Shown here in pieces: positions 40,725-45,585 of a stretch of 64,000 nucleotides of DNA. This stretch comes from Candidatus Nitronauta litoralis (lineage in GTDB: Bacteria > Nitrospinota > Nitrospinia > Nitrospinales > Nitrospinaceae). The DNA lies in assembly GCA_015698285.1 (NCBI GenBank), contig CP048685.1, positions 1,736,001 through 1,800,000 of the forward strand, in the 5' to 3' direction. Position 1 is the first letter of the stretch. Every line of letters begins with the position of its first letter. Below the pieces are notes generated by a model. The model was not told the DNA's origin. It did not search any database and was given only the letters and a program-made list of their open reading frames with translations. The position numbers and the translations under genes were made by a program.

Positions 40725-41146
40725 TTGATAAAGTTTCTCAAAAATAGTTTTTTAGTCACAATCCCCTCCCTGGTTCTATTCGCCGTTTTCCTTTGGACAA
40801 ACCGGAGCCAACCTCAACAAAACTATTGTTTGTGATGAACACGGCGCGGTTTCCTTCCCAGATTGAAACGCAGGGCGCGATAACATCCATTTCGCGGTTC
40901 AATGATTATTCCCGACAGACAGCGGAGAGGCTTGGTCTGGAGTTTCTGGATTTAACCGAGGTATTTCAGGAATCCTGGAACAGGGAAGGGCAACGGCATA
41001 AATGGACAATAGACAGCCATTGGAACCACAAAGGCCATCAGGTGGTTGCGGAGGAGTTAACCCTGAGGGGGAACAATTTACTGAATCCCTGGCGGTTGGA
41101 AAAGCCAGGGATTGAGACATTCAGCGCCGGTTATGATCCCGTTTGA
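40725..41146 (+). pseudogene. Decayed SGNH/GDSL hydrolase-like gene
   Basis: Two pieces in different frames. The first (from TTG 40725 to TGA 40833-40835) encodes a membrane anchor, KFLKNSFLVTIPSLVLFAVFLW. The second (40793-41146) encodes LLFVMNTARFPSQ, RLGLEFLDLTEVF and WTIDSHWNHKGHQVVAEEL, the Asp-x-His block of SGNH hydrolases of the alginate-acetyltransferase-like kind. The region with the catalytic serine and oxyanion residues is absent, so a deletion joined the two ends out of frame. A short standalone gene is possible but unlikely, as no good start is seen. Confidence 0.65.
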
Positions 41147-41243
41147 TTTTTGCGGGTTGGCGTTTGCTGTTGAAGATCAGCAGGCTGGTGATGGCAAGGA
41201 GTGATGCTCCCAAAATCATGGTCCAATCAAGTTGCAGTGTCAT
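41121..41243 (-). CDS. Small single-pass membrane protein (40 aa)
   Basis: Reading the minus strand from ATG 41243 gives 40 residues: a short N-terminus MTLQLDWT, one hydrophobic helix (MILGASLLAITSLLIF), then a basic tail NSKRQPAKIKRDHNRR. AGGAG lies about 8 nt before the ATG, and the gene starts 13 bp after the stop of the PCP_red-repeat gene on the same strand, so it is probably co-transcribed with it. Positive-inside topology puts the tail in the cytoplasm. It overlaps the decayed SGNH gene tail by 26 bp on the opposite strand. Function unknown. Confidence 0.6.
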   Translation of the reverse strand: MTLQLDWTMILGASLLAITSLLIFNSKRQPAKIKRDHNRR

Positions 41244-41256
41244 GTGTGAACTCCTG

Positions 41257-42099
41257 TTAAAACGTGAATCGATGTTTTTCGAATAATTCCATTGTCACCC
41301 TGTCCGCATTTTCTTTTTTGACTTCAGCTTCAATACGTTTGACGCCCATGTCGCGGATGAAGGCGATCGGGATTTTCATGACCTTGGCTTTTGCGTCGTC
41401 ATCCCACTGCAACTCAAAAGTCGGTTCTTCCTGGGGTGCGTTCTCTTCCTGCGCTTCCCGTTGCTTGTCTTCCTCAGTCACTTCCATGCCCATGGCTTCT
41501 TTTGCAGATGCCGGCATGATGTTGGTGAACACTTCTTCGATAATTCCGGGTGTGACCATTTTGTCACCGCGCTCCCGGGCGCGTCCTTCAATGGTCTGCT
41601 TGGCCATGCCGAGTACAAAGGGGGGGACCTTTTCCATTTTCTCCATGGCTTCCTTGGTCCAGGGCATCCCCATGGTCGGCGCAGATTCCATATAGTTTTT
41701 GAACTTGTCGACGATGTCTTCTTTCTTTTCTGTCCTGAGTGCAAGAAAATCTTCAATCTCTTCGATCACCTCGACCTTGCGTGAACTTTCAGACATTTTT
41801 TGTTTAGCCACATCGAATGCGCCCATCGACAATTCTTCGAAACCGAATTGTTTAACCCGTTTCGAAACCAGCATCATGGACTCGTTGCGGATTTCAGTGA
41901 GGTAGTCCGAGGTGATATATTTGTAGCCGCGTTTTACTGCTCGCTGGACCATGAGCTTCCTGATACCGGGACGCACGAATTCCGGTGCGTGTTTCACTCG
42001 CTCCCAGGCTTCAACCGTCCATTCGACGTTGTTTTCGTCTGCATAGGGGTGATCAATGCGATCCGATTCTTCAATTGCTTTTTCGTCTATTTCTTCCAT
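41257..42099 (-). CDS. Protein with three PCP_red-like repeats
   Basis: 280 soluble residues, acidic. A strong ribosome site (GGAGGAG) precedes the ATG. Three units share the pattern W-x-x-(E/D)-A ... P-x-F-(V/I) ... R-A/E ... (I/V)T ... E: residues 26-72 (WTVEAWERVKHAPEFVR), 145-193 (WTKEAMEKMEKVPPFVL) and 229-280 (WDDDAKAKVMKIPIAFIR). This is the domain found at the C-terminus of the light-independent protochlorophyllide reductase subunit B (PCP_red) and in stand-alone proteins of non-phototrophs. Its role there is not known to me. Here it is probably paired with the downstream 40-residue membrane protein. Confidence 0.75.
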   Translation of the reverse strand: MEEIDEKAIEESDRIDHPYADENNVEWTVEAWERVKHAPEFVRPGIRKLMVQRAVKRGYKYITSDYLTEIRNESMMLVSKRVKQFGFEELSMGAFDVAKQKMSESSRKVEVIEEIEDFLALRTEKKEDIVDKFKNYMESAPTMGMPWTKEAMEKMEKVPPFVLGMAKQTIEGRARERGDKMVTPGIIEEVFTNIMPASAKEAMGMEVTEEDKQREAQEENAPQEEPTFELQWDDDAKAKVMKIPIAFIRDMGVKRIEAEVKKENADRVTMELFEKHRFTF

Positions 42100-42116
42100 A
42101 ATTCATCTCCTCCGAG

Positions 42117-42279: not shown

Positions 42280-45200
42280 ATGGATAAAGTCAACGAAATT
42301 ACCGGGTCGGAAGCGCTTCCCGGGCAAACCGAAATAGCGCATTCTTCCCGCCTGATGTACCTGTTTTTTTTCCTGTCCGGGATTACGGCCCTGGTTTACG
42401 AAATAATCTGGACGCGGATGTTGACCCTGGTATTCGGGCACACCGTATATTCCGTTTCGGTGGTGCTTTCTGCTTTTATGGCCGGGCTTGGATTTGGAAG
42501 CTACGTATTCGGCCATGCGATGGACCGCTTGATAAATCAACAGGATGCCGGCAAAGAACCTCTGGCGGCTCTCAAGACCTACGCCTTTATTGAACTCAGT
42601 ATCGGAATCATGGCGGCTGGGTTGTCCGTATTGTTTGCAGAGTTTGACTTTATTTATGGTTGGATGCACAACTGGTTGCCGGAGTCTCCTCTGGTGTTGG
42701 ATGGTTTAAAGGCCGTGCTGTCTTTTGGCCTGATCTTTCTGCCCACTGCGTTGATGGGAGCCACCCTCCCGATCATCAGCCGGTATTACGTCACCGATAA
42801 CAGTCGAATGAACACCCAGGTGGGATTGCTCTACTCCCTGAACACACTGGGAGCCGCAGCCGGTTGTTTGCTGACCGGATTTTTCTTCATTGCTTCTTTT
42901 GGTGTTTTAGAGACCGCTCTGGCTGCAGCGGCACTCAACCTTGCCATTGGGGTGGGCACCTGGCGGTTGTATCAGGAAAGAGCTGAGGGTAAAAACGGGA
43001 CCATTCAATTTCCACGGCTCACACTTCCCAAACTGAAATGGACAAAAGACAGTCAACTGTGGCTGTTGGTCAGTTTTGTTTGCGGGTTCACCGCGCTGGC
43101 CTATGAGGTGTTGTGGACCCGGCTTCTGGTGTTCAGTATTTCGAGTACCGTGTATGCATTCAGCCTTATGCTCGCTGTCTTTCTAGTCGGGATCAGTCTC
43201 GGCAGCGGACTGGCAGTTCCAATCATGAACCGAGTGCAGAACCTGCGGACTCCACTACTTATGATTCAGGGGCTTGTCGGGTTTTACAGTTTGTTGACTT
43301 TATTTAACATGCAAAAGATTTTGTCTCCTCCCTGGAACAGTTACAATCTGGAGAAACCATTAAACACATTTTCTACATATTTTTTTGATTCAGCAGCCCT
43401 GATGCTGCCACCAACCTTGTTGCTCGGGATGAGTTTTCCGATCCTGATAAAACTGGCAGCCGGTGATCAAAAAAATATTGGTGTCGGTACCGGGCAGATT
43501 TACGCGGCCAACACTCTTGGCGCAATTCTCGGCTCTCTTGTCGCCGGGTTTTTCCTGTTGCCCGGATTTGGCGTTGAAGCCAGCCTGGTTCTGGTGGCCA
43601 CGCTCAACCTCCTCATGGTGCCGGTTTTGTTCCGCACCGGTAGCTACGCCACACACAAAATGCGCCGCGTGTTAACCATTGGAATGGCAGCCTTGATTCT
43701 TTTAATGAATCTGGCTTTGCCGGATCAAATGTTAACCGGGTTTTTCATGCGCGACAGTACCGGAAACCGTGACGTTAAACATCTCCTTCATTTTTCCGAA
43801 GGCATTACCGATACGGTAGCCGTTTTTCAGGATCCCCTGGGGCAAGTGGAACCGAACGCAAAACGTTTGATCACCAACGGTATTTCAATGTCCGCTTCAA
43901 ACAAAATCGCCTCTCGCTACATGAAATTATTAGCGCATGTTCCTGTGCTTTTGTCGGACAACCCGGATGAAGTGCTGGTGATCTGTTTTGGTACCGGCCA
44001 GACTGCGGGTGCCGCCGGGCTCCATCCGCGTGTGGGGCAGGTCGATGTGGTGGAACTTTCCAAAAGTGTGATCGAGGCGGGTTCTGCGTTCAGGCAGGAA
44101 AACCACAATGTGCTCCAAAACCCGAAAGTCAACATCATCATTCAGGACGGGCGCAATCATCTGTTGACCACGCGAAAGCAATACGATGTGATCACCGGTG
44201 AGCCGCCGCCCCCCAGAACCGCATTCACCGTCAATTTGTACACGCAGGATTACTACGAAATGGCCAGAGCCCGCTTGAAACCTGGCGGACTGATGGTGCA
44301 GTGGGTGCCTCTTCACAGCCAGAGTGCAGCTGAAGTAGATCAAAATTTTGCTACTTTCCTTTCCGTTTTCCCGCACACCATAGCTTTTTTAACTGTTGCC
44401 AACGAGATCATGCTGGTGGGTTCTGATCAACCTATCGAGCTTGATTTTAAAAAACTGCAACAACGGATGAATGATCCGGTAATCAAGCTGGCCCTCGACA
44501 GCCTGTATATCGAAAACGCGCAGGCTCTTCTATCTAATATCTGGTTTTTCGAAGAAGACCTCCATCGCTTGTCTGAAAACCAGAGTCTTATAACGGATAA
44601 CCACCCCTCCCTGGAGTTTTATCTTGATAAAGGCCCGGTCATTGGTGTTGCCAGCCAGGAACGGCTGATTTTTAACCGGACACCAGGCGAGACTATTTTG
44701 TCCCGAATCAGGAACATGGATAGGGAGAACCGCCAGCGATTTAAGGACTATTTCAAGGCAATGGATTTTTATCAACGGGGTGTGATGTATGGCAATCGTA
44801 AAATCCTGCTGGAGGCCATCAATCTGGTGGAAAATGACGAACTGATTCGCTATCACCTTCAGGCCGGGACCGAACAGGTGGCGCGACTGTTAGCTGCCAT
44901 CGAAGAGGATCCAGAAAACCTGGAAGCTATGGTCGAGTTGGGTCATGCCTGGTATCAGTTGGGAGAATATGAAAAGAGCGCGATGATATTAAGGCGTGTA
45001 CGGGAAAGGGTACCGGATAATCCGGCCGCGATGCTGTACCTCGGTTATAACATGATGGAATTGGGCCAATATGAGGGAGCGCAGAAGTTACTGAAGGAGG
45101 CTACGCGCAAAGATCCCCGGCAGATGCGTTCCGTGTTGCAACAAATTGCTTTTATCCAACTTCTCCAGCAACAAAGTAAATCACCGGATGATACGGGACT

Positions 45201-45585
45201 CCTCCTGGCCACAGCGCAGTTTTATAATATGCGGGAAGACTACACCCGGGCTCTTGAATTCTCGAAGAAAGTTCTGGATTCGGACCAGTTGCATGAAAAG
45301 GCCCTGCAAAGCGCAATGTTCAGTTACCGGGGGTTGGGCAGACCTCGCGATGTTCTGGCCCTTGGGGCTCACTACAAGCTGGTCAATCCGGACGATATCA
45401 CTTACCAATACCTGATGGCTGAAATGTTGGCGAAAACACTTCAGTGTGACAAGGCTATCCCCTATTTCGAAAAGGTCATTGAAAAGGACGACACCTATCG
45501 AAAAGCGCTCAAAATGTTGCGGGATTGCAAACGAATTCTGGAGAAATCAGGTGTGTCAGAGGGCAAATCCAGGGAAGCCGCCTAG
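42280..45585 (+). CDS. Fused MFS-type / spermidine synthase-like / TPR protein
   Basis: 1101-residue inner-membrane protein. Residues 1-230 and 260-480 hold about 12-14 hydrophobic helices in two similar halves, each starting SGITALVYEIIWTRML or CGFTALAYEVLWTRLL, the known 'fused MFS/spermidine synthase' family. Residues 500-800 are a Rossmann methyltransferase-like domain related to spermidine synthase (VLVICFGTGQTAGAAGLHP, VDVVELSKSVIEAG, NIIIQDGRNHLLTTRKQYDVITGEPPPP). Residues 880-1090 are TPR repeats (VELGHAWYQLGEYEKSAMIL, LYLGYNMMELGQYEGAQKLL). Actual substrate is unknown; polyamine synthesis is not assured because family members are diverse. Confidence 0.88.
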   Translation: MDKVNEITGSEALPGQTEIAHSSRLMYLFFFLSGITALVYEIIWTRMLTLVFGHTVYSVSVVLSAFMAGLGFGSYVFGHAMDRLINQQDAGKEPLAALKTYAFIELSIGIMAAGLSVLFAEFDFIYGWMHNWLPESPLVLDGLKAVLSFGLIFLPTALMGATLPIISRYYVTDNSRMNTQVGLLYSLNTLGAAAGCLLTGFFFIASFGVLETALAAAALNLAIGVGTWRLYQERAEGKNGTIQFPRLTLPKLKWTKDSQLWLLVSFVCGFTALAYEVLWTRLLVFSISSTVYAFSLMLAVFLVGISLGSGLAVPIMNRVQNLRTPLLMIQGLVGFYSLLTLFNMQKILSPPWNSYNLEKPLNTFSTYFFDSAALMLPPTLLLGMSFPILIKLAAGDQKNIGVGTGQIYAANTLGAILGSLVAGFFLLPGFGVEASLVLVATLNLLMVPVLFRTGSYATHKMRRVLTIGMAALILLMNLALPDQMLTGFFMRDSTGNRDVKHLLHFSEGITDTVAVFQDPLGQVEPNAKRLITNGISMSASNKIASRYMKLLAHVPVLLSDNPDEVLVICFGTGQTAGAAGLHPRVGQVDVVELSKSVIEAGSAFRQENHNVLQNPKVNIIIQDGRNHLLTTRKQYDVITGEPPPPRTAFTVNLYTQDYYEMARARLKPGGLMVQWVPLHSQSAAEVDQNFATFLSVFPHTIAFLTVANEIMLVGSDQPIELDFKKLQQRMNDPVIKLALDSLYIENAQALLSNIWFFEEDLHRLSENQSLITDNHPSLEFYLDKGPVIGVASQERLIFNRTPGETILSRIRNMDRENRQRFKDYFKAMDFYQRGVMYGNRKILLEAINLVENDELIRYHLQAGTEQVARLLAAIEEDPENLEAMVELGHAWYQLGEYEKSAMILRRVRERVPDNPAAMLYLGYNMMELGQYEGAQKLLKEATRKDPRQMRSVLQQIAFIQLLQQQSKSPDDTGLLLATAQFYNMREDYTRALEFSKKVLDSDQLHEKALQSAMFSYRGLGRPRDVLALGAHYKLVNPDDITYQYLMAEMLAKTLQCDKAIPYFEKVIEKDDTYRKALKMLRDCKRILEKSGVSEGKSREAA

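Follow-up and report, generated by a model that had tools for sequence, protein, structure and literature searches.

The two-gene locus

The window, i.e. the whole stretch of 64,000 nucleotides that was analysed, is part of the 3.92 Mb genome of a Nitrospinaceae relative. Its minus strand carries the gene for a protein of 280 residues (41257..42099), with an ATG start and, as read from the sequence, a Shine-Dalgarno motif GGAGGAG at 42107..42113 (minus). The PCP_red domain of Pfam (PF08369) is found in three stretches of this protein, with 100.7 bits in all. In a unit-by-unit search of the genome each of them alone passes the gathering cut-off of 32.5 bits: unit 1 (41890..42021, minus; genome position G000:C1:1777890-1778021) with 35.7 bits, unit 2 (41533..41661, minus) with 49.6 bits and the divergent unit 3 (41275..41406, minus) with 33.6 bits. 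The proposal of a preliminary description, that three divergent PCP_red copies form one soluble protein, is thus confirmed, also for units 2 and 3. Units 2 and 3 are separated by an acidic, variable linker (residues 193-229; 41413..41523, minus).

On the same strand, 13 bp past the stop codon of the triple PCP_red gene, starts a second gene with an ATG codon (41121..41243, minus), which encodes a single-pass membrane protein of 40 residues with a short N-terminus and a basic C-terminal tail. The good ribosome site that had been described for this 40-codon gene is present as AGGAG at 41251..41255 (minus), and the two genes are co-directional. A promoter and terminator scan, the overall counts of which were at about chance level, gave no terminator-like site between the two genes, which are probably co-transcribed.

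At its end the small gene is overlapped, on the opposite strand, by the 3′ end of a gene remnant (40725..41146, plus). The remnant derives from a gene of 384 residues that is intact in contig L017 (8349-9503, minus), and it retains residues 1-22 and 275-364 only, the middle part being deleted. Divergently from the triple PCP_red gene runs a gene for an MFS/spermidine-synthase-like protein fused to TPR repeats (42280..45585, plus), which is conserved across the order; a similar gene is found at L080:12-2753 (plus), approximately 7 kb from one of the other PCP_red genes of the genome, that of a HemQ homolog. For this MFS/spermidine-synthase-TPR gene, as for the Nif3, Dpp-like and ABC-F genes, no functional link is evident, and their presence was judged to be synteny. 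No heme gene adjoins the triple PCP_red gene at this locus, and searches against a defence-system library and for viral folds gave no match.

The triple PCP_red protein and its small membrane partner

Unit 2 matches the NMR structures 2l09 and 2kru of the PCP_red domain of BchB/ChlB, a subunit of light-independent protochlorophyllide reductase, in both sequence and fold. The AlphaFold2 model of the 280-residue protein (pLDDT 79.6) superimposes on 2l09 over 47 aligned columns at 1.2 Å, with a Foldseek probability of 1.00 and an E-value of 0.065; the weak E-values are explained by the shortness of a single PCP_red unit. The fold is also close to AAA+ lid domains and to histone-like modules, all of which are small helical modules without cofactor. 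Although its units are similar to the BchB/ChlB domain in sequence and fold, the triple protein lacks the nitrogenase-like body of BchB and combines three units in one chain. An assignment as complete subunit B of light-independent protochlorophyllide reductase was rejected, as the protein reaches 70.6 of the 509 bits needed for the NCBIfam model and matches its C-terminal domain only. Alignment of the units with each other, evaluated against shuffled sequences, relates units 1 and 2 (z 11.7) and units 2 and 3 (z 7.4), and yields no direct alignment of units 1 and 3 (z 1.7).

None of the 280 residues is a cysteine, and in the relatives cysteines are absent or not invariant, which leaves no room for an Fe-S or thiol centre. 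Nor is any known redox-cofactor motif present in the triple PCP_red family. The idea of a redox protein is thereby left without a visible chemical basis.

The triple PCP_red protein is present in 66 of the 77 Nitrospinota genomes, including 30 of the 31 good-quality ones. Within the order it is conserved at 72-95% identity, so that the three units are no local oddity; in other families of the class the protein is shorter and lacks unit 3. Conservation is highest not in the core of a unit but in unit 1's long third helix, TEIRNESMMLVSKRVKQFGFEEL (residues 68-90; 41830..41898, minus), generalised as TEIRNESMMLVSKRVKxFGFEEL, which shows 98% identity in the order and 77% identity to eight distant relatives in other lineages. 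The three-unit proteins of the order are acidic (net charge −1 to −14), in contrast to those with two units, which are basic (+6 to +12). One contig with typical Nitrospinaceae synteny and sequence (L055; JAJFIR010000003.1) carries the label Emcibacteraceae; mis-binning or mislabelling of this MAG contig is the probable cause.

In many relatives the large gene is followed by a frame of 38-42 residues, in each case with a short N-terminus, a single hydrophobic stretch and a basic tail, which in the 40-residue protein has a net charge of +6 over the last 15 residues. When a profile built from 22 of these frames was searched in the 77 whole genomes, all 32 matches with E<1e-4 were located directly behind the triple PCP_red gene, in agreement with the expected conservation of the small gene behind PCP_red genes. 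The gap is 10-35 bp in 30 of them, mostly 13-14 bp, and amounts to 119 and 183 bp in the other two. An occurrence of the small frame beside other PCP_red genes is ruled out by the same search. Pairwise dN/dS ratios, which are rough for such short sequences, are about 0.1-0.4 for most comparisons. Judged from these comparisons, the small frame is a real gene under purifying selection. Its sequence evolves fast and its distribution is patchy: it has been lost repeatedly and does not occur in about half of the genomes in which the three-unit gene is kept, and in the closest relative (L017/G002) only the 3′ part is left. Pfam and NCBIfam contain no match for the 40-residue protein, and searches with the 22 members gave single chance-level matches only and no meaningful match in the PDB; by these searches the protein is a new family.

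Basic segments next to a membrane span are expected on the cytoplasmic side according to the positive-inside rule, and the basic tail of the 40-residue protein is therefore predicted to face the cytoplasm. The pairing of the genes and the opposite charges of the products are consistent with a tethering of the triple PCP_red protein by its small partner. Such tethering must be dispensable, since about half of the genomes with the three-unit gene lack the small one. Families f5 and f9 also have a membrane-protein neighbour, but a different one: a predicted multi-pass gene (four transmembrane segments) without Pfam match lies directly upstream of the two-unit gene. This multi-pass family (L145:9424-9909, minus; L064:4496-4969, plus; L066; L067) contains conserved KYHxA and PxHDF motifs, the histidines of which might bind heme. 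The 40-residue protein is not homologous to the oxidase-assembly proteins of the CtaM/DUF420 type (PMC4958251, PMC8239418), from which it differs in size and topology. The likeness to that system lies in the gene order of relatives: a DUF420 gene precedes a pair of USP-PCP_red and radical SAM-PCP_red genes in L074, and in L181 and L193 it precedes genes of this cluster.

PCP_red proteins elsewhere in the genome and in relatives

Four further PCP_red genes are present in the genome, of the radical SAM, chlorite-dismutase-family, USP and Zn-ribbon types, and well-covered genomes of the order mostly hold 8-9 PCP_red matches. The first of these is a radical SAM/SPASM protein of 448 residues with PCP_red at its C-terminus. 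Its best models are NirJ2 (322.8 bits) and the heme b synthase AhbD (305 bits), both below the NCBIfam equivalog cut-off of 500 bits; the PqqE model gives 119.9 bits. It shares with AhbD and NirJ2 (TIGR04545, TIGR04055) the radical SAM/SPASM body and the relation to the heme pathway, but differs from them in its sub-cut-off scores and in the one to three PCP_red units that proteins of this type carry.

The second is a HemQ/ChdC homolog of 316 residues (L080:9599-10549), which belongs to the chlorite dismutase family (PF06778, 196 bits) and has an N-terminal PCP_red extension. Its best match in the PDB is a coproheme decarboxylase (9mhq, E 7e-26), with which the YPF motif, containing the catalytic tyrosine, and the next histidine are aligned; with 148 bits it stays under the 235 bits required by the NCBIfam HemQ_actino model. 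As both homologs score below the equivalog cut-offs, their reactions remain predicted. Coproheme is converted to heme b, in the last step of the pathway, by AhbD or, alternatively, by HemQ/ChdC (PMC7242693). With BchB counted in, PCP_red is thus carried by three proteins of unrelated type, each of which has relatives that act on cyclic tetrapyrroles.

The remaining two genes encode a double-USP protein with PCP_red copies and a PCP_red protein of 145 residues with a cysteine-rich N-terminus (Zn ribbon), which lies beside Mrp/ApbC-like genes. The USP proteins of these bacteria contain two to five PCP_red copies. The statement in the preliminary description that PCP_red usually occurs once is thus valid for the phototroph enzyme, but not here, where multi-copy proteins are common. 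Two other chains combine PCP_red with rubredoxin-like elements: a protein of 773 residues consists of USP, five PCP_red units and a rubredoxin-like knuckle (L173:4626-6947, minus), and another joins three PCP_red units to a CxxC knuckle of the rubredoxin-like kind and has, at its C-terminus, a stretch that by eye resembles a heme-oxygenase/TenA-like fold (L174:2195-3625, minus).

In another phylum, a radical SAM domain and three PCP_red units occupy a single frame of about 470-670 residues in 19 of 24 genomes, and this fusion usually lies directly behind USP-PCP_red. The last two units of the fusion, together with an invariant TEIRNESMM, correspond to units 1 and 2 of the triple PCP_red protein with 38-44% identity. 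In L073 and L074 of this phylum, the radical SAM domain, its own PCP_red and units 1 and 2 of the triple protein form one chain directly behind USP-PCP_red. The AlphaFold2 model of a fusion of 624 residues has a pLDDT of 61.5 and a pTM of 0.45, values that are too low for the docking to be read from it.

The gene neighbourhoods of the relatives contain several heme-handling and assembly proteins. The heme-binding protein HmuY (E 1e-19) is encoded beside the USP-PCP_red/radical SAM pair in L073, L181 and L193; in L064/L066 its gene lies some 3 kb away from that of the two-unit protein. Mrp and the Zn-ribbon PCP_red protein are found near the pair in L183, L184 and L185, and CcmH, a DsbD-like protein, thioredoxin and a CxxCH protein, not all of them in each case, in L184, L187, L188, L192 and L199. 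In the deltaproteobacterium S146_80, two contigs (L144:1-8000 and L143:1-6395) meet inside the radical SAM-PCP_red gene. Their genes form a run in one direction that includes an AioA-like (arsenite-oxidase-like) Mo enzyme, a HEAT protein, USP-PCP_red, radical SAM-PCP_red, a bd-like oxidase, two cytochromes c, a cytochrome c/EB_dh protein (a heme b subunit) and the three-unit gene.

The distribution of PCP_red across genomes speaks for a link with heme proteins, but also sets limits to its role. PCP_red, EB_dh and HmuY are all absent from Nitrospinota families f7 and f8 (four genomes), and nearly all others have all three; the four genomes may be one clade, so that this joint absence represents few independent events. 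Cytochrome c assembly proteins are present without any PCP_red in f7/f8 and in G087, from which it follows that PCP_red is not general heme machinery and is not needed for heme as such. The candidate explanation that PCP_red serves all cytochrome c assembly was rejected, because Cytochrom_C_asm proteins also occur in genomes that lack PCP_red. Four of the 23 PCP_red genomes of the second phylum are without EB_dh, which weakens a strict link between PCP_red and EB_dh.

A possible role in tetrapyrrole handling

The fusions and gene neighbours suggest that the triple PCP_red protein helps these non-photosynthetic bacteria, which are related to marine nitrite oxidisers, to handle heme or a related pigment. 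In the reading that we prefer, with a probability of about 0.4, the protein would be a cysteine-free helical scaffold for the maturation of a tetrapyrrole, most likely heme or a modified heme, and would be held at the membrane by the 40-residue protein. The all-helical scaffold would cooperate with the AhbD/NirJ2-like radical SAM enzyme and with the HemQ/ChdC-type, USP-type and Mrp-linked Zn-ribbon PCP_red proteins, and the PCP_red units would dock on those enzymes or pass substrate to them. The small protein, produced from the same message, would span the inner membrane, its basic tail being on the cytoplasmic side, and keep the three-unit protein, which is acidic, at the inner membrane face, the presumed site at which b-type heme acceptors are assembled. 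We infer this topology and protein interaction, as well as a tetrapyrrole as ligand and membrane or periplasmic b-type heme enzymes as destination of the product, from the comparisons described above.

The main rival is a generic role. PCP_red could be a domain for protein-protein docking, by which various enzymes (radical SAM, USP, HemQ, Mrp-type carriers) are brought together for the assembly of respiratory metalloenzymes, without specificity for tetrapyrroles, with the three-unit protein as scaffold and the small protein as anchor. The missing cysteines, the lack of a conserved metal-ligand pattern and the proximity of the fold to AAA+ lid and histone-like helical modules all fit this role, and so does the L143/L144 run, with its AioA-like Mo enzyme, bd-like oxidase and EB_dh subunit. 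The partners are also diverse, including USP, Mrp and a Zn ribbon, and it counts against the tetrapyrrole reading that USP and Mrp are not specific to tetrapyrroles. A generic adaptor, however, would not predict that three of the carriers (DPOR, HemQ, AhbD/NirJ) have cyclic tetrapyrroles as substrates or resemble enzymes of this kind. We consider the generic role possible, but on balance unlikely.

A further alternative assigns to the radical SAM partner the synthesis of a peptide- or protein-derived cofactor, like the SPASM enzyme PqqE, with the PCP_red units as recognition elements and the small or the three-unit protein as a possible substrate. The SPASM domain with its PqqE-like solved relatives and the direct fusion of PCP_red units to the enzyme are in line with it, but the NirJ2 and AhbD models score far above that of PqqE, and genomes outside the order have the radical SAM protein but no small protein; we regard this alternative as improbable. 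Quite improbable is also that the small frame encodes an independent membrane protein, e.g. a stress or toxin-like peptide, that shares the operon by chance. Type I toxins are of similar size, and fast evolution and frequent loss would suit such a peptide, but its constant layout with a basic tail and the location of all confident matches behind one gene, and nowhere else in the 77 genomes, argue against it. The earlier reading of a membrane-tethered soluble redox protein is hardly credible in view of the missing cysteines and redox-cofactor motifs, despite respiratory genes near some relatives.

Of the redox or cofactor-binding module that had been proposed, the redox part thus falls with the cysteine-free, helical fold. 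A connection to a cofactor follows from the presence of PCP_red on heme-pathway homologs in the genome and from its clustering with heme-handling genes elsewhere; the cofactor and membrane parts of that proposal are indirectly supported.

In a broader form of the tetrapyrrole reading, PCP_red would mark a new tetrapyrrole pathway in non-phototrophs. The radical SAM protein, the HemQ variant, USP, the Mrp carrier and the membrane-anchored scaffold would then produce or deliver the heme, perhaps a modified one, that EB_dh-type subunits use in respiratory enzymes, for instance nitrite oxidoreductase. This extension is doubtful.

Literature searches on PCP_red outside the chlorophyll enzyme or in non-phototrophs gave nothing relevant, although the structures 2kru and 2l09 have been solved. 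In this locus a known domain appears in an architecture and a pathway context that are new, together with a new small protein family. This family of 40-residue membrane proteins, under purifying selection, is easily overlooked by automatic annotation. In Nitrospinota PCP_red forms a conserved gene set, and the occurrence of HemQ-type and AhbD/NirJ-type carriers in one genome, with the fusion to the latter type, makes a testable hypothesis on tetrapyrroles out of what was a puzzling annotation, 'protochlorophyllide reductase', in bacteria of the dark ocean.
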